A stretch of DNA of 42,717 nt, from the NCBI RefSeq assembly GCF_024345995.1, contig NZ_JAGQCE010000020.1:1-42717 (forward strand), read 5' to 3'. Shown here in pieces: positions 7,912 to 35,799 of this stretch; position 1 is the stretch's first letter; every line of letters starts with the position of its first letter. Under the pieces are notes generated by a model. That model ran no database searches, had not been told where the DNA came from, and saw only the letters and a program-made list of their open reading frames with translations. The position numbers were made by a program, and so were the translations under genes. Origin of the DNA: Synechococcus sp. Cruz-7E5. Lineage in GTDB: Bacteria > Cyanobacteriota > Cyanobacteriia > PCC-6307 > Cyanobiaceae.

Positions 7912-8451
7912 TCAGTGGCTATGGCGCACCCTGCTGCGGCCAGGTGCCATCTGGCTGTGGTGCTGGGCGGTCTGCTGGGGCCTGGAGGGATGGTTTCTCA
8001 CCTGGAAGTCCCAGCCTTTGTCCTGCAGCTGACGGTTCACGGCCCCCACCAGCTCATGGGGAAGATCTTCCGCCATCTGCTCGGCGGAGGTGATGATTGA
8101 GGGGGAGCCCTGCTTCAGGGCCCAGAGCAGTTCCGCCCACTGCTCCACCAGGGTGGGCTGAACGACCTGCCGTTGAGAGTCACCCTCAAGGACGGCAGCG
8201 CAGCCGCTCTGCTGCCAGAGGGTGGCACGACCCCTTTGCAGGCCCTGGCCACTGGCCCGCGCCAGACCCAGTTGCAGTGCCCGCTCGGTGGGGCGGCCAT
8301 CAAGCTGGCGCAGCCCGGCCTGAATCAGCTGGCGGCCGCAGCTCACGGCTGAAAGGCCGAGGGAGCGCCCCAGGTCAGTGAGGGAGATCCAGCGATCCCC
8401 GGATTCGTCGGGGCCGTGCCCGCCTGTGGTCCCAGGCATGGTGGTCGTCAT
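7912..8451 (-). CDS. Conserved cyanobacterial hypothetical protein with HTH-like N-terminus
   Basis: A 179-residue protein from the ATG at 8451. The frame is open up to 8568, but those extra codons would run into the end of the chorismate lyase gene and read as low-quality sequence (Met-Gln-Ile-Ser-Ile-Lys), so I prefer the internal start. The first part (WISLTDLGRSLGLSAVSCGR) looks like a helix-turn-helix, as in proteins that begin 'isLtdlGr.lGlsa..vgrwL'. The middle is helical and the end basic and disordered. Being a DNA-binding or adaptor protein is inference. It lies downstream of chorismate lyase on the same strand. Confidence 0.65.
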   Translation of the reverse strand: MTTTMPGTTGGHGPDESGDRWISLTDLGRSLGLSAVSCGRQLIQAGLRQLDGRPTERALQLGLARASGQGLQRGRATLWQQSGCAAVLEGDSQRQVVQPTLVEQWAELLWALKQGSPSIITSAEQMAEDLPHELVGAVNRQLQDKGWDFQVRNHPSRPQQTAQHHSQMAPGRSRVRHSH

Positions 8452-8542
8452 CGTTGAAGAGGTGAAACCGATGCCGCCATCCTGTTCAGATTGCCCGAAA
8501 GCGCAAGTTGTCAAGTGGAAACCGCCACAGGTTGCGACGATT

Positions 8543-9178
8543 TCATAAAACTTTATGGAGATCTGCATCGGGCTGGCTGGGGCCGAGCCAGCGCTCCAGT
8601 GCTGGTGAGAACACTTCCCGGATCACCGTGAGTTCCCGTCCCTGCCTGAAAAAGCGGTAGTGGCGGCTCCAGAAGGGACCCTTGGCGGCGAATCCCCGCT
8701 CCAACCAGTCGGCGTTCACCTGGGCCAGTCCGTCCACTTCCCGAAACAGTTCGGCCCGCTCACTGGTTAGGCTCAACCAGATGGGCTGCTGCCGGTCGCG
8801 CAGAGACTCTTCGGCCTCCGCCTGATTCCACCAGCTCTCGGCCCAGGCCAGGGCCTGGCCGTTGCAGCGCAGCCACACCTGCCGCAGCAGCAGGGGTGGG
8901 ACCAGCTCCGCCACCTCGGCGGGCCGAGTCTGGGCGGTATCAGGGCCTGGTCCTGGGCGCCGGAGCTCCTGCTCTGGCCCCATGGCGATCAGATCGATCG
9001 TGACCGGCCTGCCGGTGAGCAGGTGCAGGTGGCGGGTGGGACTGCCGTCGCCCAGGAGCAGCAGTTTCCAGGCGCCGCTGAGCTGGGCTCCGGCCCGGGC
9101 GTTGAGCACCTCGCTGATCGGGGCTTCCCAGAGCGGTGTCGGGGAGACCGATGGCCTGGTGAGCAGGGAGTCAGCCAT
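8543..9178 (-). CDS. Chorismate lyase, DUF98/cyanobacterial type
   Basis: A 211-residue protein of the DUF98 (chorismate pyruvate-lyase / Rv2949c) fold. In cyanobacteria this family is thought to make 4-hydroxybenzoate from chorismate, the first step towards plastoquinone. Features seen: an LxGDGSPTRHLxLLTG core, a substrate-pocket Arg region (VWLRCNGQALAWAESWWN), a WLSLTSERAELFREVDGL strand, and the C-terminal RHYRFFRQGRELTVIREVFS block. The length is normal for the family. Assignment rests on recognised motifs; substrate choice could differ. Confidence 0.78.
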   Translation of the reverse strand: MADSLLTRPSVSPTPLWEAPISEVLNARAGAQLSGAWKLLLLGDGSPTRHLHLLTGRPVTIDLIAMGPEQELRRPGPGPDTAQTRPAEVAELVPPLLLRQVWLRCNGQALAWAESWWNQAEAEESLRDRQQPIWLSLTSERAELFREVDGLAQVNADWLERGFAAKGPFWSRHYRFFRQGRELTVIREVFSPALERWLGPSQPDADLHKVL

Positions 9179-9280
9179 CAGGCTCAGCTCGGTTATTCAG
9201 GCTAAGGAGGTCCGAGAGGGCAACGGGAAGACGATCCAGGAGCCTTACCTACTACGTGGGGCTAGCCGGGAGCCTGACCC

Positions 9281-10249
9281 TCAGAAGCCTCCGCTGATGC
9301 TCACCCGTTGCTGCTGGCCGTTGCGCTCAATCACCACGGAGTTGCCGTTGGCCGAGCGCAGGCGCCAACCGGTGGAGCCGATCGCCTCCCCCACTGCTGC
9401 GCTGGTTGAGCTGCCGCCCATCTGGAAGATGGCGGAGCCACTCTGGCCAGGTACCTGTACGACCCCCACCAGCTCGGGGGAGCCACTCTCCGCTCCAGCA
9501 CCGCCGCCATCATCTGACGGACCGGAACCGCTGGCTGCTCCAGCTGTCGGCATGGCGGGGGCTGGTGGAGCCCTCCGCGTGATCGTGCCACTGACTGGAA
9601 CCCGCAGCGGGGCTGCGGATGAGGCACGGGAGGTGCTCTCCAGCGGCTCCAGTTCCTGCACCCAGGCTTCCTCCGGCGGCGGCGGCGGCAGGCCGTTGAT
9701 GGCGCCATCGACAGCTTCGCCTGGAGGCTGGGAGGTGGCGGCGGCCGTGGTTCCAGGCTCGGCAGCCCCCAGGGGGCCCACCGAGCGCAACCGCTCCAGC
9801 AGTTGCAGGGTGCGCTCCTGTTGAAGGGCGATGCTCGCCTGGGTCCAGCCCCGCCACACCAGCAGGGTGCTGCCGGCCCCCAGCACCGACAGGAGCGCCA
9901 TCGCTATCAGCATTGGCCGTTGCTGCTGGGGCCGTACCGCTGCCGAAGAGGGGGCTGTGGAGCTTCGGCCCCTTGCCACGGATCGGCTTCCAGGCCTGGC
10001 TGCCTGCCGCAAGCGCGGTGGTGCGTCGTGCACCACCACATCGATGGGTGCGGGATCGCAGCCAGGCTCCATGGCCAGGTTCGGCTCCGGCTGGTGCGGG
10101 TCGCGGCTGTAGCCCTCCAGGGTCAACCGCTCCCCAGAGCGGATCCCCAGGGTAGGCAGACCGGAGGAAAACACGCGGTCCATCACCTGCTCGGCCTTCA
10201 GCTCCCAGAACGCGCGGGAGGAGGAGATGGGACGCGGATCACCGCCCAT
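9281..10249 (-). CDS. Single-TM protein with PilP/GspC-like C-terminal domain
   Basis: A 322-residue cyanobacterial protein. A soluble N-terminus of about 110 residues leads to one TM helix (PMLIAMALLSVLGAGSTLLVW), a Pro/Ser/Ala-rich linker, and a compact C-terminal domain (VGVVQVPGQSGSAIFQMG, then IGSTGWRLRSANGNSVVI and a QQRVSISGGF end). That domain has the alternating short beta pattern and 'G..I...GW.L.......v...' layout of the PilP/GspC HR domains that line the periplasmic part of pilus or secretion machines. A pilus-assembly role is inference. It starts 11 bp after the mnmG stop on the same strand. Confidence 0.72.
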   Translation of the reverse strand: MGGDPRPISSSRAFWELKAEQVMDRVFSSGLPTLGIRSGERLTLEGYSRDPHQPEPNLAMEPGCDPAPIDVVVHDAPPRLRQAARPGSRSVARGRSSTAPSSAAVRPQQQRPMLIAMALLSVLGAGSTLLVWRGWTQASIALQQERTLQLLERLRSVGPLGAAEPGTTAAATSQPPGEAVDGAINGLPPPPPEEAWVQELEPLESTSRASSAAPLRVPVSGTITRRAPPAPAMPTAGAASGSGPSDDGGGAGAESGSPELVGVVQVPGQSGSAIFQMGGSSTSAAVGEAIGSTGWRLRSANGNSVVIERNGQQQRVSISGGF

Positions 10250-27049: not shown

Positions 27050-27763
27050 TCAGGCGGCAAGCAGTTCGGGTTCGCGGTAGGGCTCGAAACTGACCTTGCG
27101 AGCGCCGCAGATCGGGCACTCCCAGTCGTCGGGGATGGCCTCGAAGGGGGTGCCGGCGGCGATGCCGGAATCGGGATCGCCGATGGCGGGGTCGTAGATC
27201 ATCGAACAGACCTTGCAGATCCAGAGGCCGGGCAGCGGCTCACTGGCCTCGCCGGCCTTGCCCTCACCGGAGAGGGCCTTCAGGGCGATGCCGTAGCGGT
27301 CGGCGTGGTGGTTCTCGATGGGGGTGAGGAAGCCGAAGTTGCTGGCGGCCTTGCGGAAGAGGCCGGCGTGGTCTTTCGATTCCGCGATCTGCCCATTGAA
27401 TTCGCTCTCGGCGCTGGCGTCATGATCGGCGCGGGCGGCTGCGGCGAACTCCGGATACATGGTGGTGTACTCGTAAGTTTCACCCTCGATCGCCAGCTCA
27501 AGGCAGCGGGTGAGCACCGTCTGCTTCTGCTCCTCGCTGAGGGATGCAGGATCCTCCACCACCAGCTCTGGATGGAGCAGGCGGAAGTGGGCGAAGGCGT
27601 GCTCTGTTTCCTGGGCGGCGGTGTCTCGGAAGAGCCTGGCCAGCTCGTGGTTGCCGAGTTTTTTGGCCACATCGGCGAAGAAGAGGTATTTGCGGTTGGC
27701 CATGCTCTCGCCACCGAAGGCGGCTTCGAGATTGGCAGTGGTGGCGGGGTTGGAGAGATCCAT
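27050..27763 (-). CDS. Rubrerythrin with C-terminal rubredoxin domain
   Basis: A 237-residue protein: a four-helix ferritin-like diiron domain (E19 in [10 protein letters not shown]52 and H55 in QETEHAF, E94 and E96 in EGETYEY, and NHHADRY at 151-157) followed by a rubredoxin domain with paired Cys (C183/C186 and C216/C219). Rubrerythrins reduce peroxide. This fits the upstream Flv1/Flv3, which reduce O2 to water. The 73-bp gap from the flv1 stop contains an inverted repeat that could be an internal promoter or operator. Confidence 0.94.
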
Positions 27764-27806: not shown

Positions 27807-27840
27807 CTAAGTCGGAGTGAGTATGAGTTAGCCGACTCAG
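27807..27840. promoter_or_regulatory. Imperfect palindrome with repeated AGT between flv1 and rubrerythrin
   Basis: CTAAGTCGG (27807-27815) and CCGACTCAG (27832-27840) are reverse complements except for one base. The region also carries AGT at 27810, 27816, 27820 and 27826. It overlaps the flv1 stop codon and lies about 45-75 bp upstream of the rubrerythrin start. It may be an operator for an internal promoter or an RNA hairpin; there is no T-run for a terminator. Confidence 0.4.
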
Positions 27841-29645
27841 TAGTTGGCTCCGCTGCGCCGCTTGTGCACCGCCGTGGTGCCCGCAGGATCCAGCAGTGCG
27901 CCGTTGCTCACTTCGGCATAGATCAGCCAGTGATCGCCGCATTCCATCCGCTGGCTCACCCGGGCCTCCAGCCAGGCCAGGGCCTCCGGCAGCACCGGCT
28001 GCCCCCCCGGGCTGCTCTCCAGTTCCAGGCCGGCAAAGCGATCGGCGCCGGGGGGGAAGGGTTGCAGGAACTGCTTCATCGGGCCGCTCTCCCGGCCAGC
28101 GGCCAGCACGTTGAGGGCGAAGCCATCGCCCACATGCAGCAGCGCCTCGACGGCGCGGTCCTTGGCCACGGCCACCGTGAATCCCGGCGGACTGAAGCTG
28201 GCCTGGCTGACCCAGCTGGCCACCATCGCTCCTGCCAGGGCCTCCTCCCCCTCCCCCTTGCGGGTGGTGAGGACGCAGAGGGATCCCACCACCCGCCCGA
28301 GGGCCAGCACGGCCGGGTTGCTGCGGCTTTCGCTCAGGCCACCGCCGGCCACCCGCTTCTGGCGTTTGTGCTGCTGCTGCAGGTCCCGCCCCAGGGCCGT
28401 GCCGGTTTCCTCCAGCCGTTTGAGGGTGGCGCCATCGGGGCTGAACTTCACCCGGATCGGCTCAAAGGCGAAGCGGAAGCCGCCGTCGCGCAGCTTGCTC
28501 TCGAGCAGGTCGATTGCTTCCCCACTCCAGCCGAAGCTGCCGAACACGCCCACCGGCTTGTCCCGGTCGCCCTCTGCCAGCAGGGTGCCCAGGGCGGAGA
28601 CGATCGGCGTGGGTGCATGGCCCCCGAGGGTGGGGGAGCCGATCATCAACGCGTCGCAGCCGCGGATGGTCTGCAGGAGTTGCTCCGGCGGCGCGAATTC
28701 ACAGTTCAGGCTCTCGACCCTGACCCCCGTGCGCGCCACTCCCTGGGCCAGGGCATCGGCGATGGCGGCGGTGTTGCCATAGGCGCTGGCATACAGCAGG
28801 GCCACCGACAGCTGTGCCTTCTCCTGGCTCTCGCCCCAGCGGCGGTAGTCGGCCAGCAGGCTGCGCCAGCTTTCGCTGATTGCCGGGCCATGGCCCGGCG
28901 CGATCGTGCGGATCGGCAGCTCATCGAGGCGGTCGACCACCGTTTCCACCTGGCGTGCCATCGGCGCCATCAGGCAGTCGTAGAAATAACGGCGATCCTC
29001 CTCGGTGCTGTCGCGGTTGGCCTCGGCCCAGCTCTCGCTGCAGAGGTGGGCCGAGAAGAACTTTCCGCTCATCAGCAGGCCGGTGCTCTCCTCAAAAGCC
29101 ACAAGGGCACTGGGCCAGCGGGGTGTGGGTGTGGGGATCAGGGTGAGGCGGTAACCGGCCGCCAGCTCCCGGCTCGCCTCCTGCTTCACCACGTCGATCG
29201 GGGGCAGGGGCGGCAGGGGTGGCTCCGGCTCCGCTCCTGCCGCCGCGGGCCGGCGCTGGCTCCAGAGTTCCTCCAGAAGCCGGGCACCGGCGTTGGAGGC
29301 CACCAGCATCAGCGCCGGCCAGCGCAACGCCAGCTGGTGCAGCAGTGCCACCCGGTTGGGGTTGAGGTGGCCCACCACCACCTTCAGGGCCGCCTCGCTG
29401 GGCACCAGCTCCGCGAGCTGATCCAGAAAGGGTTGCGCGAAAGATGCTCCAGGTGGATGGATCAATACCGGTGGCACCGGCTGGCCAGCGCTGGTGACGC
29501 CGGCGGTGAACAGATAGGCGTTGGCGGTGGTGCCGCGCTCGAGGCCGTACTCCACCTCGAAGCGCAGGCGCTTGGGGCTGAGGCCCCTCAGGCAGAGCAG
29601 ACCCGGCTCGATCTGCAGGGCGATGACGCTGCGTTCGGTGCTCAT
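27837..29645 (-). CDS. flv1: Flavodiiron protein, Flv1-type with substituted diiron ligands
   Basis: A 602-residue cyanobacterial class C flavodiiron protein: metallo-beta-lactamase-like domain (about 1-260), flavodoxin-like domain, then a flavin-reductase-like C-terminus (VGSLCVLTTRKGEGEEALAG, FTVAVAKDRAVEALLHV). The iron-binding motif that should read HxExDH is HLNPNR (93-98), so the Glu, Asp and second His are lost; another ligand Asp is Lys in MSGKFFS. Substituted ligands identify it as the Flv1-like subunit that pairs with Flv3 in the NAD(P)H-linked reduction of O2 in light. The start at 29645 overlaps the acyltransferase TGA (ATGA). Confidence 0.93.
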   Translation of the reverse strand: MSTERSVIALQIEPGLLCLRGLSPKRLRFEVEYGLERGTTANAYLFTAGVTSAGQPVPPVLIHPPGASFAQPFLDQLAELVPSEAALKVVVGHLNPNRVALLHQLALRWPALMLVASNAGARLLEELWSQRRPAAAGAEPEPPLPPLPPIDVVKQEASRELAAGYRLTLIPTPTPRWPSALVAFEESTGLLMSGKFFSAHLCSESWAEANRDSTEEDRRYFYDCLMAPMARQVETVVDRLDELPIRTIAPGHGPAISESWRSLLADYRRWGESQEKAQLSVALLYASAYGNTAAIADALAQGVARTGVRVESLNCEFAPPEQLLQTIRGCDALMIGSPTLGGHAPTPIVSALGTLLAEGDRDKPVGVFGSFGWSGEAIDLLESKLRDGGFRFAFEPIRVKFSPDGATLKRLEETGTALGRDLQQQHKRQKRVAGGGLSESRSNPAVLALGRVVGSLCVLTTRKGEGEEALAGAMVASWVSQASFSPPGFTVAVAKDRAVEALLHVGDGFALNVLAAGRESGPMKQFLQPFPPGADRFAGLELESSPGGQPVLPEALAWLEARVSQRMECGDHWLIYAEVSNGALLDPAGTTAVHKRRSGANY

Positions 29646-31783
29646 CGGTGCTGCCCGGCGGAGTTGAGGTTGCTGCTGGTCAGTCTGGGATTGGCCAGCA
29701 GGGATTCGAAGGCCTCGTACAGGGTGAGCATGGCCTGAGCCGATAGGTGATCCGTGTCTCTGAGCATCTGGGTCACCATGGCGTTGCTGCAGCCATCGCT
29801 GCACAGCACCGGCATCGGATCAAACAGCTCGACCTGGGCGACGAGCCCCTCTCTGAGCAGGGAATTCATGCGCTTGGCGTTCGCCACTTCTCTGCCCACT
29901 TCCTGCTCACATTGCGTGACCGCCTGCAGGCTGAACCACTCCTGGAAGCAGATGTCGTAATCGAGGTTGCGTGGCGTTGCGCCGATCAGAATTGTTCTCA
30001 CGCCTCTGGCGGAGGCCGCTTCGCCGAACGCATTGATCGCTCTGAGGTAACTAGCGCTCTTTTCTTCTCCCGTTGTCAGGGTCTGGCCATCGAGCCCGCG
30101 GAATTGGTCTCGGGTGTCCTTGAGATTCTCCCTGTCGCCCAGGTGGCTCAGCAGATAGCCGTTAATGACAACCACATCGCCTGGCCGCGCCTGGGACAGG
30201 ATGAATTCCTCGGAGAGTTCCAAGAATCGCGAGCATCCTTCTCGGGTATTCCCGTAATCCGTGTCTGGGAAAGGGCAGCCTGGTCGGCCGAAGAGGGTGA
30301 TCGATGCGTGCCCTCGCTTGAACAAGCGATTGGCCAAGGGCGAGAAGGCCATCGCATGGCTGTCGCCCACTACGAAGATATGCCGCTTATCGTTGGTACG
30401 AACGGCGCCTCCCTGATTAATGGGATGTCTGGCCGTGCAGAGCGTCGCATACTCATTGAACGACTCCTTGCTGGAGAGAATGGTTTTGTCATTCTTTCTG
30501 GAGGCGCAGTTTGGAGGGTTGATTTTCGATCCCTTGATCTTGAGTGGGCCTCCATCGCGGACGCCATCCATCATGCTTCGATCTCCCAGATAGAGGCTGC
30601 CCTTGAGGGGGCTGCTGAGTGCCCATAACGGCAGGGAGGTCGATACTGCACCGATGAGCCCTAATGCGATGGTGCGCCAGCTAAGGCCGGACCATTGGGC
30701 ATAGCGAAGGGGTTGTTCGATGTAGCGATAGGAGGCGATGGCAAGCAGCCAGATCACGGCGATTTGCAGAGGGATGGTCCACCACTGGATGCCGATTGTC
30801 CAACGGCTGATCGCAAGAACGCTCCAGTGCCAGAGATAGAGTGAATAGGAGAGCAGCCCTATGCCCACAACTGCGGGGTTGGACAACCAGCTCTTTGCCA
30901 GCGATTTGGGCTGCAGGCAAGCGATCAGTGCGGCCGTCAGCACCACGACGGAAAGCGTTGCTATCACCTGCAGCCTTTGGGGAAGAAGGAACGAGGCGAT
31001 CAGCAGAGCAAGAACGACCAACGGTGAGAGCCGCTCCGCGAATCCTCGACCCCGTCCTGCCGTAAGCATCAGAAACAGCAGGCATCCTGCGCCAATCTCC
31101 CAGAAGCGGGATGGCATAAGGAAGTAGGCTGCCGAAGGGTTGGTGTCACTAAGGCGGATGAAGGCGATCAGAGAAGCGACACTTGGAATGCCGACCAGCC
31201 AGATGAGTTTGTTGCACCTGGCTGAGGTCGATGTAATGAAGCCTGAAATAAGAATAAGAATCGGAAAGACGAGATAGAATTGCTCTTCGATCCCCAAGGA
31301 CCAGGTATGGGTGAAGGCATTCAGCTCTGTTGTCCGCGCGAAGTAGTCGGTCGATTGCTGAAAAAGGTAGATATTGGAAAAACCGAACAGCGCGCTGATG
31401 CCGGTCGCCAGGGTGACCCCGGAATGGCGATCAAACAGTGAAATGAACAGGCTGGTGATGGCCACGCAGACAACCAATGCTGGCAGTAGGCGTTTGATGC
31501 GCCGCGCGTAGAACTCCAGCAGTAACTCCTTGTTGTTGGAGACTGGTCTGATCCTGGCGAAGGATGCTGTGATCACGAAGCCGGAGATCACAAAGAAAAT
31601 ATCGACACCCAGATAGCCGCTGGGAAGGATGTCTTTGTTGAAATGGTTTGCAATCACAGCGATCACAGCAACCGCCCGCAGCCCATCGATCTCGGGCCGG
31701 TAGAAGGATGATCCCTTGCCTGGTGACGTCTGGTCTGTCTGTTGAGCGGGGTGCGGCATCGTTCGATCATGCATAGGCTTCAA
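29642..31783 (-). CDS. Acyltransferase-3/SGNH two-domain protein (OafA/YrhL-like), inserted between flv3 and flv1
   Basis: A 713-residue membrane protein: N-terminal acyltransferase-3 domain with about ten TM helices (FYRPEIDGLRAVAVIAVIAN with catalytic His47, YLGVDIFFVISGFVI, FTHTWSLGIEEQFY, SYSLYLWHWS) and a periplasmic SGNH domain (VVGDSHAMAF, Ser475; ending DTDHLS). The class O-acetylates lipopolysaccharide or other glycans. GC is visibly lower than its neighbours: one 60-base line at 31201 is 40% G+C against 60% in a flv3 line at 33001. It starts 30 bp after flv3 and its TGA overlaps the flv1 ATG, so it sits inside the flavodiiron operon without breaking it. ATGs at 31783 and 31774 are both possible. 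Confidence 0.9.
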   Translation of the reverse strand: MKPMHDRTMPHPAQQTDQTSPGKGSSFYRPEIDGLRAVAVIAVIANHFNKDILPSGYLGVDIFFVISGFVITASFARIRPVSNNKELLLEFYARRIKRLLPALVVCVAITSLFISLFDRHSGVTLATGISALFGFSNIYLFQQSTDYFARTTELNAFTHTWSLGIEEQFYLVFPILILISGFITSTSARCNKLIWLVGIPSVASLIAFIRLSDTNPSAAYFLMPSRFWEIGAGCLLFLMLTAGRGRGFAERLSPLVVLALLIASFLLPQRLQVIATLSVVVLTAALIACLQPKSLAKSWLSNPAVVGIGLLSYSLYLWHWSVLAISRWTIGIQWWTIPLQIAVIWLLAIASYRYIEQPLRYAQWSGLSWRTIALGLIGAVSTSLPLWALSSPLKGSLYLGDRSMMDGVRDGGPLKIKGSKINPPNCASRKNDKTILSSKESFNEYATLCTARHPINQGGAVRTNDKRHIFVVGDSHAMAFSPLANRLFKRGHASITLFGRPGCPFPDTDYGNTREGCSRFLELSEEFILSQARPGDVVVINGYLLSHLGDRENLKDTRDQFRGLDGQTLTTGEEKSASYLRAINAFGEAASARGVRTILIGATPRNLDYDICFQEWFSLQAVTQCEQEVGREVANAKRMNSLLREGLVAQVELFDPMPVLCSDGCSNAMVTQMLRDTDHLSAQAMLTLYEAFESLLANPRLTSSNLNSAGQHR

Positions 31784-31813
31784 GGCTCGGTTGGGGGTGT
31801 TCCGTTGTCGTGC

Positions 31814-33592
31814 TCAGTAATGGTTGCCCACCTTGCGGTGGTGCACCGCGGTGGTGGCTTCACTGTCGGCCACGTTGCCCTCCTCCACCTCGGCGTAGAT
31901 GATCCAGTGGTCGGGGCCCTCCATGCGCTGGGCCACCCGGCAGCCCAGGTAGGCCAGGGCATCGCCCAGCACGGGACCGCCCGCTGAGACCCCATCGAGG
32001 GTGGAGACTCCAGCGAAACGATCGGCCCCGGGCGGGAAGCGCCTGAGGAAATGGCGCAGCAGCTCCTGGTGGTTATCGTCCCGCAGGATGTTGAGCACGA
32101 AGCGGTCGCCCACCTGCATCAGGGCCTCGATCGCCCGGTCCTTGGCCACGGCGATCGAGAGGCCAGGAGGATCGAAACTGGCCTGACTCACCCAGCTGGC
32201 CACCATGGCGCTGCTGCGTTCCCCCTGGCGGGCGGTGACGATGTAGAGCCCCCCGCTGAGGCGTCCGAGGGCTTTGTCGAGGTCGCCATCAAGAGACTTC
32301 ATCGCTGCGATCGTGCGGGCGCGGGTGAGCAGCTGGCCCAGGTCGGTCCCGGCTTCTTCGCAGCGCTGGTAGTCGTTGCCGTCAGGCACCTGGCGGATGC
32401 GCAGGGGCTCAAAGGCCTCCTTCTGGCCCACGCTGCGCAGCTGGGCGGCAACGCTGTCGATCGGCTGGTCATTGCCGCCGTAGGCGTCGTAGGCGGCAAC
32501 CCACTGCTTGGGTTTGAGGGCGGCCAGCAGGGTGCCGATCGATTGCTGCAGCTCGGGGTCAGGGTTGGCGGGCCAGGTGGGCACCACCACGGCGCTGGCG
32601 TCCCCCACCAGGGCCGCCAGTTCCTGCGCATCGGTGGCGCGCAGATCCACCAGCTGCACCTGGGCCTCGGCCTTGCCGATGCCGCGGGCGATGGCCTGGC
32701 ATAGGCGGTCGCAGAAGCCGTACTGGCTCACGTAACAGACGGCGGCATAGGTTTCGTCGGCGCTGCGCTGGCTGCTCCAGTCGCGGTAGTCGCCGGTCCA
32801 GAGGCTCAGGTGATCGCGCAACAGCGGGCCATGGCCGGTGGCGATCATGCGGATCGGCGGCAGGGCATCCATGCGCTTCAGGGCCTGCAGCACGCTGCGG
32901 GCGTTGGGCCCCATCAGGCAGTCGTAATAGAAGCGGTAATCGGGGGCGATGGCGCCGGGATCCACGTCGTAGATGTCGTCACCGCAGTAGTGCAGACCGA
33001 AGGCATCGCAGGTGTAAAGGATGCCGGTGCCGTGATCGAAGGAGAAGATCGTGTCGGGCCAGTGCAGGTTGGGCGCGCTCAGGAACTCGAAGCGGTGCTG
33101 CACCCCGCTGGTGGGATTCACCCCCAGGTCGAGCTCTTCGCCACTCTTCACGGCCCGGCTGCGGAAGGGCCTGTGTACCTGGTCGGCCAGGAACTGGATC
33201 GCCACCTTGGAAGCCACGATCTCGATCTCGGGGTTGCGCTCCAGCAGGTGGCCGATCAGGCCGCTGTGGTCGGGTTCGGTGTGGGACACGATCAGGTGAT
33301 CGATCGCCAGCGGATCGATCTGCTCCTCCAGCAGGGGCAGCCAGGTGGCTTCGAACTTGAGGTGGCTGGTGTCGATCAGGGCGGTGCGCTCACCCCGCAC
33401 CAGGAAGGCGTTGTAGGTGGTGCCGTTGCGCAGGCCGAACTCGATGTCGAAGCGGCTGCGGTCCCAATCGAGGGAGCGGATGGTGGTGGTGTCGGGCCCG
33501 ATCGCGGCGCACTGGAGCGAGAGGCGAGGGGGTGCAGCGGTGGCGACAGTCATCGACGGCGTCTGCGAAGGCGACGACTCTAGAAAGGCCAT
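31814..33592 (-). CDS. flv3: Flavodiiron protein, Flv3-type with canonical diiron ligands
   Basis: A 592-residue class C flavodiiron protein. The iron motif is intact, HTEPDH at 104-109 (H104, E106, D108, H109), as are the later ligands in SFDHGTGILYTCDAFG and ATGHGP. A flavodoxin-like domain (AVCYVSQYGFCDRLCQAI) and a flavin-reductase-like C-terminus (LYIVTARQGERSSAMVA) follow. With Flv1 it forms the light-dependent O2 photoreduction (Mehler-like) enzyme that protects PSI. I chose the ATG at 33592, which has AGGG 8 nt ahead; an ATG at 33553 is a possible alternative. It is the first gene of the operon. Confidence 0.94.
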   Translation of the reverse strand: MAFLESSPSQTPSMTVATAAPPRLSLQCAAIGPDTTTIRSLDWDRSRFDIEFGLRNGTTYNAFLVRGERTALIDTSHLKFEATWLPLLEEQIDPLAIDHLIVSHTEPDHSGLIGHLLERNPEIEIVASKVAIQFLADQVHRPFRSRAVKSGEELDLGVNPTSGVQHRFEFLSAPNLHWPDTIFSFDHGTGILYTCDAFGLHYCGDDIYDVDPGAIAPDYRFYYDCLMGPNARSVLQALKRMDALPPIRMIATGHGPLLRDHLSLWTGDYRDWSSQRSADETYAAVCYVSQYGFCDRLCQAIARGIGKAEAQVQLVDLRATDAQELAALVGDASAVVVPTWPANPDPELQQSIGTLLAALKPKQWVAAYDAYGGNDQPIDSVAAQLRSVGQKEAFEPLRIRQVPDGNDYQRCEEAGTDLGQLLTRARTIAAMKSLDGDLDKALGRLSGGLYIVTARQGERSSAMVASWVSQASFDPPGLSIAVAKDRAIEALMQVGDRFVLNILRDDNHQELLRHFLRRFPPGADRFAGVSTLDGVSAGGPVLGDALAYLGCRVAQRMEGPDHWIIYAEVEEGNVADSEATTAVHHRKVGNHY

Positions 33593-34439: not shown

Positions 34440-35438
34440 TTGTCCGATTTCATCACACTGTTTCTTGAGCAGGTTCAGTCTCCAACGCTGGGCTTCCTGA
34501 TCGGCGGCATCGTTGTTGCTGCATTAGGCAGCGAGCTGGCCATTCCAGACTCGATCTACAAGTTCATCAGCTTCTTCCTGTTGATGAAGATCGGCTTGAC
34601 AGGTGGGATCGCCATTCGCAATTCCAATCCCACCGAGATCTTCCTCCCGGCGCTCGCGGCTGTGGGGATTGGCATCGCGATCGTGTACATCGGTCGTTAC
34701 ACCCTGGGGAAGCTGCCAGGCATCAGCGTGCCTGACGCCGTGGCCACCGGTGGTCTGTTCGGCGCGGTGAGTGGATCCACTCTGGCAGCGGTCCTGCCGC
34801 AGCTGGATTCCGCCAAGATCCCCTATGAGGCCTGGACGGCGGCACTCTATCCCTTCATGGACATCCCGGCCCTGGTGACGGCGATCGTGGTGGCCAGCGT
34901 TTACCTCAGAAAAAAGACCGGCAACGCTTCCGAGAAAGTCGAAGTATGGCCGATCATCAAGGAAAGCATGCAGAGCTCGGCCGTCACGTCGCTGCTGCTG
35001 GGCGTGGCCCTTGGCATTCTCACCAAGCCAGAGCCCGTCTGGGAGAGCTTCTTCAATCCTCTGTTCCGCGGCTTCCTCGCGGTTCTGATGATCATCATGG
35101 GGATGGAGGCCGCCCAGCGCATGAATGAGCTGCGCAAGGTGGCCCAGTGGTTCGCCATCTATGCCTTCTTTGCGCCCATCGTGCATGGTTTTCTAGCCTT
35201 CGGTCTTGGCCTGATCATCCACAAGCTCACCGGCTTCAGCATTGGTGGCGCGGTCGTGCTGGCGGTGATTGCTGCGTCGAGCTCGGATATCTCGGGCCCG
35301 CCGACCCTTCGTGCTGGCATCCCGTCGGCGAATCCCTCTGCCTACATCGGCGCCTCCACGGCCATCGGCACGCCAGTGGCGATCGCCATCTGTATCCCGC
35401 TCTTCATTGGGATTGCCGAGATGATGCTCGGTCGTTAA
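34440..35438 (+). CDS. sbtA: Sodium-dependent bicarbonate transporter SbtA
   Basis: A 332-residue inner membrane Na+/HCO3- symporter of the CO2-concentrating mechanism. About ten TM helices in two repeats are visible (LGFLIGGIVVAALGSELAIP; GGLFGAVSGSTLAAVLPQL; VVLAVIAASSSDISGPPTLR), with the paired Ser/Gly-rich core motifs typical of SbtA. The start is TTG at 34440: GGAG (34428-34431) is 8 nt ahead and no upstream ATG exists in frame. The next gene, sbtB, follows 46 bp later. CO2-responsive control is likely but I see no recognisable operator. Confidence 0.96.
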   Translation: MSDFITLFLEQVQSPTLGFLIGGIVVAALGSELAIPDSIYKFISFFLLMKIGLTGGIAIRNSNPTEIFLPALAAVGIGIAIVYIGRYTLGKLPGISVPDAVATGGLFGAVSGSTLAAVLPQLDSAKIPYEAWTAALYPFMDIPALVTAIVVASVYLRKKTGNASEKVEVWPIIKESMQSSAVTSLLLGVALGILTKPEPVWESFFNPLFRGFLAVLMIIMGMEAAQRMNELRKVAQWFAIYAFFAPIVHGFLAFGLGLIIHKLTGFSIGGAVVLAVIAASSSDISGPPTLRAGIPSANPSAYIGASTAIGTPVAIAICIPLFIGIAEMMLGR

Positions 35439-35484
35439 AATTTCAAAAACCTTTCAAAATCTCAACTAATTGGAGACTAAGTTC

Positions 35485-35799
35485 ATGAGTCAACAAGTTT
35501 GGAAGCTGGTGATCGTTGCAGAGGAAATCCTCTCTAAAAAACTCATCAAGCTGATCAAGGCGGCAGGTGCAACCGGTTACACTGTGAATGCGGCCGGTGG
35601 GGAAGGAAGCCGCAATGTGCGCTCCACGGGGGAGCCAAGCGTGTCGCACACCCTCGCCAATGTGAAAATAGAGGTGCTCACCGGCACCCGCGAGCTCGCT
35701 GACAAGATCACCAGCGATATCGCAGCCAAGTTTTACGCGGACTACTCGATCATCACTTATATCTACCAGGTGGAAGCCCTGCGCGATCATAAGTTCTGA
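35485..35799 (+). CDS. sbtB: SbtB, PII-like regulator of SbtA
   Basis: A 104-residue trimeric PII-like protein that binds adenine nucleotides (cAMP, AMP, ADP, ATP) and inhibits SbtA at high carbon. The T-loop region [12 protein letters not shown] (36-47) and C-terminal [17 protein letters not shown] are visible. The last residues lack the CGPEGC redox loop seen in the Synechocystis protein; the short form resembles that of Cyanobium. GGAG at 35472-35475 lies 9 nt before the ATG at 35485, which decides the start over a TTG at 35470. A terminator follows. Confidence 0.95.

Follow-up and report, generated by a model that had tools for sequence, protein, structure and literature searches.

A membrane O-acyltransferase gene as a probable horizontally moved passenger between the flavodiiron genes flv3 and flv1 of Synechococcus sp. 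Cruz-7E5

The window analysed here, a stretch of 42,717 nt from contig NZ_JAGQCE010000020.1 of Synechococcus sp. Cruz-7E5 (genome G000), contains an intact gene for an AT3-SGNH membrane O-acyltransferase (hereafter ATF) between flv3 and flv1, the genes for the Flv3-type and Flv1-type flavodiiron proteins. Comparison with related genomes suggests, with a probability of roughly two in three, that ATF is a horizontally circulating accessory gene that sits at the flv3-flv1 junction as a passenger and has been moved between strains by recombination.

The genus sample comprised nine genomes, the window's own included. Three of them (G000, G004 and G007) carry ATF between flv3 and flv1, and the junction is empty in the other six (G001, G002, G003, G005, G006 and G008). 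The gene order flv3-ATF-flv1 and the ATGA overlap between ATF and flv1 are identical in G004 and G007, and the position of ATF in the window is therefore not an accident of assembly. Where the junction is empty, the flv3 stop overlaps the flv1 start as TGATG, as it does in several other genera. The carriers have 30–39 bp past the flv3 stop, then ATF, the stop of which overlaps a new flv1 ATG, while the N-terminal extension of flv1 found downstream of TGATG in the empty genomes is missing or replaced. This points to a shift of the translational coupling of flv1 from the flv3 stop to the ATF stop. The original prediction, made from the window, had stated that the insertion kept the reading order and coupled translation; both are present, but the coupling was relocated rather than simply kept. 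Its description of an AT3/SGNH gene of 713 residues, 30 bp past the flv3 stop and with its own stop overlapping the flv1 ATG, agrees with the coordinates (Table 1), the Pfam domains and the two further genomes. The insert is also foreign to most relatives, since ATF occupies this position in a third of the genus sample and in just one of 80 named loci, which is that of G007. The suggested comparison of synteny thus did not find ATF here, with normal composition, in most related genomes. One genome with an empty junction, G003, contains an ATF relative elsewhere (L181), which is 46% identical to the window ATF, has two in-frame TGA codons within the part that matched and may be decaying.

The history of the insert was examined using gene trees, junction bases and divergence. 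ATF of G000 shares 61% identity with the ATFs of G004/G007, compared with 92–93% for flv1 and 96% for flv3. They are nevertheless mutual best matches among 400 genomes of the family, the next match (49%) being at another location, and the ATFs of the three carriers form one clade in a tree of 36 sequences (support 100/99). In the flv3+flv1 tree, from which 17 of 90 loci were left out as their flv3 was not long enough, the carriers stand apart: G000 groups with the empty genomes G001 and G002, and G007 is paired with the empty G006, beside G004. Only three of 5,211 aligned columns (1,980 of them variable) separate the three carriers from the six non-carriers, and all three lie beside the insert (Table 1). 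For 83 other genome triples, at most one separating column was found within 40 bp of the junction. Because the three separating columns all adjoin the insert, the comparison identifies one insertion haplotype on different backgrounds, and it was probably moved by homologous recombination. Beyond these three bases, the flanking genes each track their own lineage. Between G004 and G007, synonymous divergence (dS) is 0.061 for ATF, compared with 0.525 for flv1, 0.200 for flv3, 0.263 for the rubrerythrin-rubredoxin gene rbr and 0.183 for sbtA, and local identity peaks at the junction with 99–100% around the flv3 end. Judged by this lower dS and the identity peak, the common ancestry of the two ATFs is more recent than that of their flanks.

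Table 1 Features of the window, given as nucleotide positions, and integrase elements found between flv3 and flv1 in relatives.
Feature	Position	Strand	Description
flv3	31814-33592	-	Flv3-type flavodiiron protein of 592 aa; 8 genus mates share 94-98% identity
flv3 end, CATTACT	31816-31822	-	His-Tyr and first base of stop; equivalent CA[CT]TA[CT]T forms the repeated core in relatives' integrase elements
Carrier-specific base (T)	31820		7 bases from end of flv3 stop, inside CATTACT core
Spacer	31784-31813	-	flv3 stop to ATF TTG, 30 bp (39 bp to ATG at 31774)
ATF	29642-31783	-	AT3-SGNH membrane O-acyltransferase, 713 aa (TTG) or 710 aa (ATG at 31774)
ATGA overlap	29642-29645	-	ATF stop TGA (29644-29642) over flv1 ATG (29645-29643)
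Carrier-specific bases	29631 and 29625		15 and 21 bases into flv1
flv1	27837-29645	-	Flv1-type flavodiiron protein, 602 aa
rbr	27050-27763	-	rubrerythrin-rubredoxin gene, downstream, context
sbtA	34440-35438	+	Na+/bicarbonate transporter, divergent from flv3, context
Elements L213, L214, L248, L249, L253, L254, L255, L256	between flv3 and flv1		eight elements in relatives, 4.4-7.7 kb

The composition of ATF was compared with 153 open reading frames (ORFs), each 300 aa or longer, drawn from the window and 360 kb of contig C1. Its G+C content is 0.569, compared with 0.658 ± 0.050 for the ORFs (5th percentile), and its G+C at third codon positions (GC3) is 0.701 (6th percentile). A codon-usage distance as large as or larger than that of ATF was reached by 11% of the ORFs, and sbtA, a neighbour in the flv locus, has a G+C of 0.600. 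The G004 copy is of ordinary composition (GC 0.657, GC3 0.836). Hence, the lower G+C that had been noticed is real, but the deviation is only moderate and the codon distance unremarkable, and a recent arrival does not follow from it. The low-G+C copy in G000 would fit transfer from a lower-G+C relative without showing it. Nonsynonymous divergence (dN) and dS are 0.013 and 0.061 for the ATFs of G004 and G007, and 0.341 and 1.398 for those of G000 and G004. The resulting dN/dS of 0.21–0.25 indicates a maintained gene under purifying selection, in line with the earlier statement that it was selected or at least tolerated.

We propose that a single insertion of ATF between flv3 and flv1 would have replaced the original flv1 start and thereby tied flv1 translation to the stop of ATF, no longer to that of flv3. 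The ATF-bearing junction would then have passed into other flv backgrounds in the genus, likely by homologous recombination via the flv3 and flv1 flanks. Read-through would be expected to give expression of ATF alongside the flv genes, with ATF a passenger and not a partner in O2 photoreduction. Promoter- and terminator-like sites were counted at chance level (1 versus 0.9 and 4 versus 4.0), and neither gap contains one.

Several observations weigh against this proposal. The dS between the ATFs of G000 and G004 (1.40) is only about 1.5 times that of the flanks (0.87–0.96), with both near saturation, so that long vertical descent combined with rapid protein evolution may also account for it. 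Furthermore, the native flv3 flank of G000 reaches up to a few bases from the insert, and foreign-looking sequence is limited to the first tens of bases in flv1, so that the exchange tract would have been short. No possible donor whose flv3-flv1 junction holds an intermediate ATF was found among the 400 family and 388 class genomes. An unlikely but credible alternative is that ATF entered the junction in an ancestor of the whole genus and evolved rapidly, and that recombination brought in empty alleles in six of nine lineages. The single ATF clade, the single junction haplotype, an ATF dS not far above that of the flanks and the native composition of the G004 copy would all suit such a history. 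However, the empty state, with its flv1 N-terminus and TGATG, is common to other genera, and recombination would be needed even here because deletion alone could not restore it. A dS for ATF in G004/G007 below that of the flanks and a low G+C confined to G000 also argue against it.

The same junction holds integrase elements in other picocyanobacteria. Such elements, AT-rich and 5.9 and 7.7 kb long, separate flv3 from flv1 in L142 (Synechococcus sp. AG-670-A05) and L145 (Prochlorococcus sp. AG-412-I05), respectively; their integrases are 51% identical over 148 residues. L145 is one of five loci first counted as lacking flv3, since its element is longer than the fetched flank. A search of the 400 family genomes found related integrases in 36 genomes. 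Thirty loci were fetched (G212, G216, G231, G376, G324 and G372 are outside this set), and eight of them have flv3 directly upstream, two of these being from the genomes of L142 and L145. In all eight, the integrase starts about 93–277 bp after flv3 on the same strand, and flv1 lies 4.4–7.7 kb (rounded, 4–8 kb) further on. A Phage_integrase domain, which marks a tyrosine integrase, was assigned by Pfam in the five examined (L142, L248, L249, L253 and L254). A second copy of the core at the flv3 end, CA[CT]TA[CT]T, lies no more than 120 bp ahead of flv1 in seven of the eight elements, the exception being L249. Among 4,000 equally long interior windows the motif occurred in 220, and it was absent from all 15 non-integrase inserts, which include those of the three ATF genomes. 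In L214 the repeat extends to 14 bp, CCACTACTGATGAG, across the flv3 stop and the flv1 start.

The eight flv3-adjacent integrases fall into one group of nine rows (support 93/85, with a long-branch warning from the program). The ninth row, L222 of G033, is not next to flv3; the core adjoins it at a different location. In L251 (G033 contig 2, about 1–1600), GATGCACTACTAG stands just upstream of a related integrase; no flv gene was found near it, which may reflect another target site or a joined (circular) form. The 1.5-kb flanks of the other 21 integrase rows contain no flv3, and a tRNA was found near this integrase in none of ten loci scanned. The cargo includes a ParB_N/DNA-methylase protein and a transposase in L248 and a methyltransferase-like protein in L253. 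No viral relatives of the L145 integrase were found, and the L248 integrase has weak matches (27%) in two phage records. Because the integrase adjoins the flv3 end in all eight cases and the core recurs before flv1 in seven, the 3' end of flv3 is very likely an attachment site of tyrosine-integrase elements in picocyanobacteria.

ATF itself could have come on such an element, using the flv3 end, with the integrase part later lost and the cargo left behind. This is doubtful. The eight elements exactly at flv3-flv1 and the position of one carrier-specific base inside the repeated core speak for it, but the same CAT for CAC is also seen in the empty relative L093, and ATF was seen in none of the eight elements. 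The ATF insert contains the ATF frame and overlapping frames only, without an integrase gene, and the nine genus genomes hold no integrase relative at E ≤ 1e-12. In addition, the 120 bp before flv1 lack CA[CT]TA[CT]T in each ATF genome and likewise in 12 further non-integrase inserts, and no direct repeat flanks the insert in the window. With neither integrase nor repeat left, arrival of ATF by this route is unproven and only possible.

ATF is one of several occupants of the junction. The 80 named loci have flv3 inside the fetched DNA in 75 cases, and the gap between flv3 and flv1 is at most 140 bp in 63 of these and more than 500 bp in 12. Peripla_BP_6 proteins encoded on the opposite strand occur there in L043 (G031), L084, L085, L087, L099 and L117. 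Close relatives of the L043 binding protein (E ≤ 1e-70) were found in 6 of 201 genomes searched, and in all six the gene separates flv3 from flv1; the four members of this family (L196–L201) that were checked for orientation run opposite to the flv genes. A 400-aa protein, also on the opposite strand, is encoded at the junction in L044 (G012; 8098–9309), L141 and L149, and in broken form in L143. Matches to it (E ≤ 1e-20) were present in three of the 201 genomes, always beside flv1 and with flv3 on the other side in two. The remaining case is G091 (L217), where flv1 adjoins the 400-aa gene and the 5.4 kb upstream showed no flv3. The protein matched no Pfam or NCBIfam family, and its structural model is of low confidence (mean pLDDT 59.3). 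A likeness to polysialyltransferases or GT-B folds was too weak to give the protein a name, as the polysialyltransferase 5wc6 ranked fourth in Foldseek among many Rossmann folds. Further inserts occupy the junction in L138, L142 and L155; that of L155 (3165–6019) is 2.85 kb long, has a G+C of 0.418 and is without integrase or core repeat.

Taken with the integrase elements, the evidence leans towards a view of the operon as a docking site, in which the flv3 end, with its conserved ...Asn-His-Tyr-stop, is the attachment site, and ATF, the periplasmic binding protein and the 400-aa protein are tenants of long standing. An element integrating at this junction would rebuild the flv3 end and leave flv1 intact. 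The proposed role of the flv3 end as an integrase target would explain why the junction is often occupied in the family.

Residues 30–347 of ATF match Acyl_transf_3 (PF01757, 4.6e-24) and residues 461–693 match SGNH (PF19040, 2.4e-26), both above the Pfam cut-offs. All four AT3 motifs (R-X10-H, RXXR, GYLGVD and FFVISGF) are present in the window ATF and likewise in those of G004 and G007, and the SGNH part of the window ATF contains the block I GDS at 473 and the block V DTDH at 676. In their treatment of AT3 proteins, PMC7448272 and PMC9558356 name R/K-X10-H, RXXR, G-F/Y-X-GV-D and FFx[IVL]SG[FWY] as functional or conserved, and the SGNH motifs are named in these papers too. The O-antigen acetyltransferases OafA and OafB described there are likewise fused AT3-SGNH proteins and have R-X10-H, RXXR, GYxGVD, FFxISGF, GDS and DxxH in common with ATF. 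ATF differs in that it sits in a photosynthesis-related operon. A crude hydropathy scan gave 8 segments; about 11 transmembrane helices are typical of the OafA/OafB type. By family, ATF would carry a cytoplasmic acyl group, as a rule acetyl, through the inner membrane and attach it to an envelope glycan, with lipopolysaccharide, capsule or exopolysaccharide as candidate targets. ATF is present in a single copy in G000 (E ≤ 0.001), so that a duplicated gene was rejected, and no sequence relative with a solved structure was found at E ≤ 1. Phage relatives of its AT3 part are annotated as O-antigen acetylases. As these are partial matches (28–33% identity among the matches listed) and no relative was found in viral contigs, a prophage origin was rejected.

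The original prediction favoured O-acylation selected as a partner of the O2-reducing Flv1/Flv3 operon. Although the genes lie on the same strand with overlapping start and stop, and ATF is under purifying selection, this is very unlikely. ATF is missing in six of nine close relatives and the same gap holds unrelated genes, some on the opposite strand; functional coupling was rejected as the leading explanation because of this patchy presence and these unrelated tenants. Related AT3-SGNH genes elsewhere have no flv gene near them in any of 31 other loci fetched out of a longer list of matches (400 family and 388 class genomes), and no evidence was found that links O-acetylation to O2 photoreduction. 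Membership in an operon should thus not be taken as function. That related acyltransferases were inserted twice, independently, at one site, as 61% identity and differing G+C might suggest, is most improbable given the identical ATGA overlap, the ATFs being mutual closest relatives among the 400 family genomes, and the three common junction positions.

With regard to the surrounding genes, Flv1 and Flv3 both contain ODP, Flavodoxin_1 and Flavin_Reduct domains according to Pfam. sbtA, matched in all nine genus genomes, and a PII-like gene (window 34440–35799) are divergent from flv3 and place an inorganic-carbon uptake pair beside the O2-reduction genes.

If ATF is a passenger at a docking site, an oddity of one genome becomes a testable rule, according to which the junction of the O2-photoreduction operon is a repeated landing place that tolerates cargo on either strand, apparently because the flv3 end is an integrase target. 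Picocyanobacteria would then have a defined chromosomal docking site. The balance of Flv1 to Flv3 would also be predicted to vary between strains with the content between the genes.

Tycheposons of Prochlorococcus are small integrase elements of picocyanobacteria that use tRNA genes as targets. The elements described here are small integrase elements too, but differ in that no tRNA was found near the integrase in the ten loci scanned. T7-like cyanophages have a recombinase of the tyrosine type. Their integration at tRNA-Leu, as described in PMC8776855, is likewise site-specific in picocyanobacteria, but the target is a tRNA gene and not the end of a protein gene. As to flv3 and flv1 themselves, section 2.1 and Table 1 of PMC4390876 (Allahverdiyeva et al. 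2015) report that their organisation is not conserved and that ORFs lie between them in 5 of 27 alpha-cyanobacteria listed (CB0205, CC9605, CC9902, RS9916 and WH 5701). Together with the opposite-strand genes at the same junction, this leaves the assumption that flv3 and flv1 are normally found together unsupported, and splitting as such is already known in print. In those arrangements the two genes are likewise parted by one or more ORFs, which that section and table give by accessions or numbers only. A keyword search of the literature found no integration at the flv3 end. Recombinase elements at an flv3-type gene are described in PMC4874684 for heterocyst-forming cyanobacteria; those elements carry serine recombinases and interrupt flv3B in filamentous organisms, whereas here a tyrosine integrase follows an intact flv3 end.

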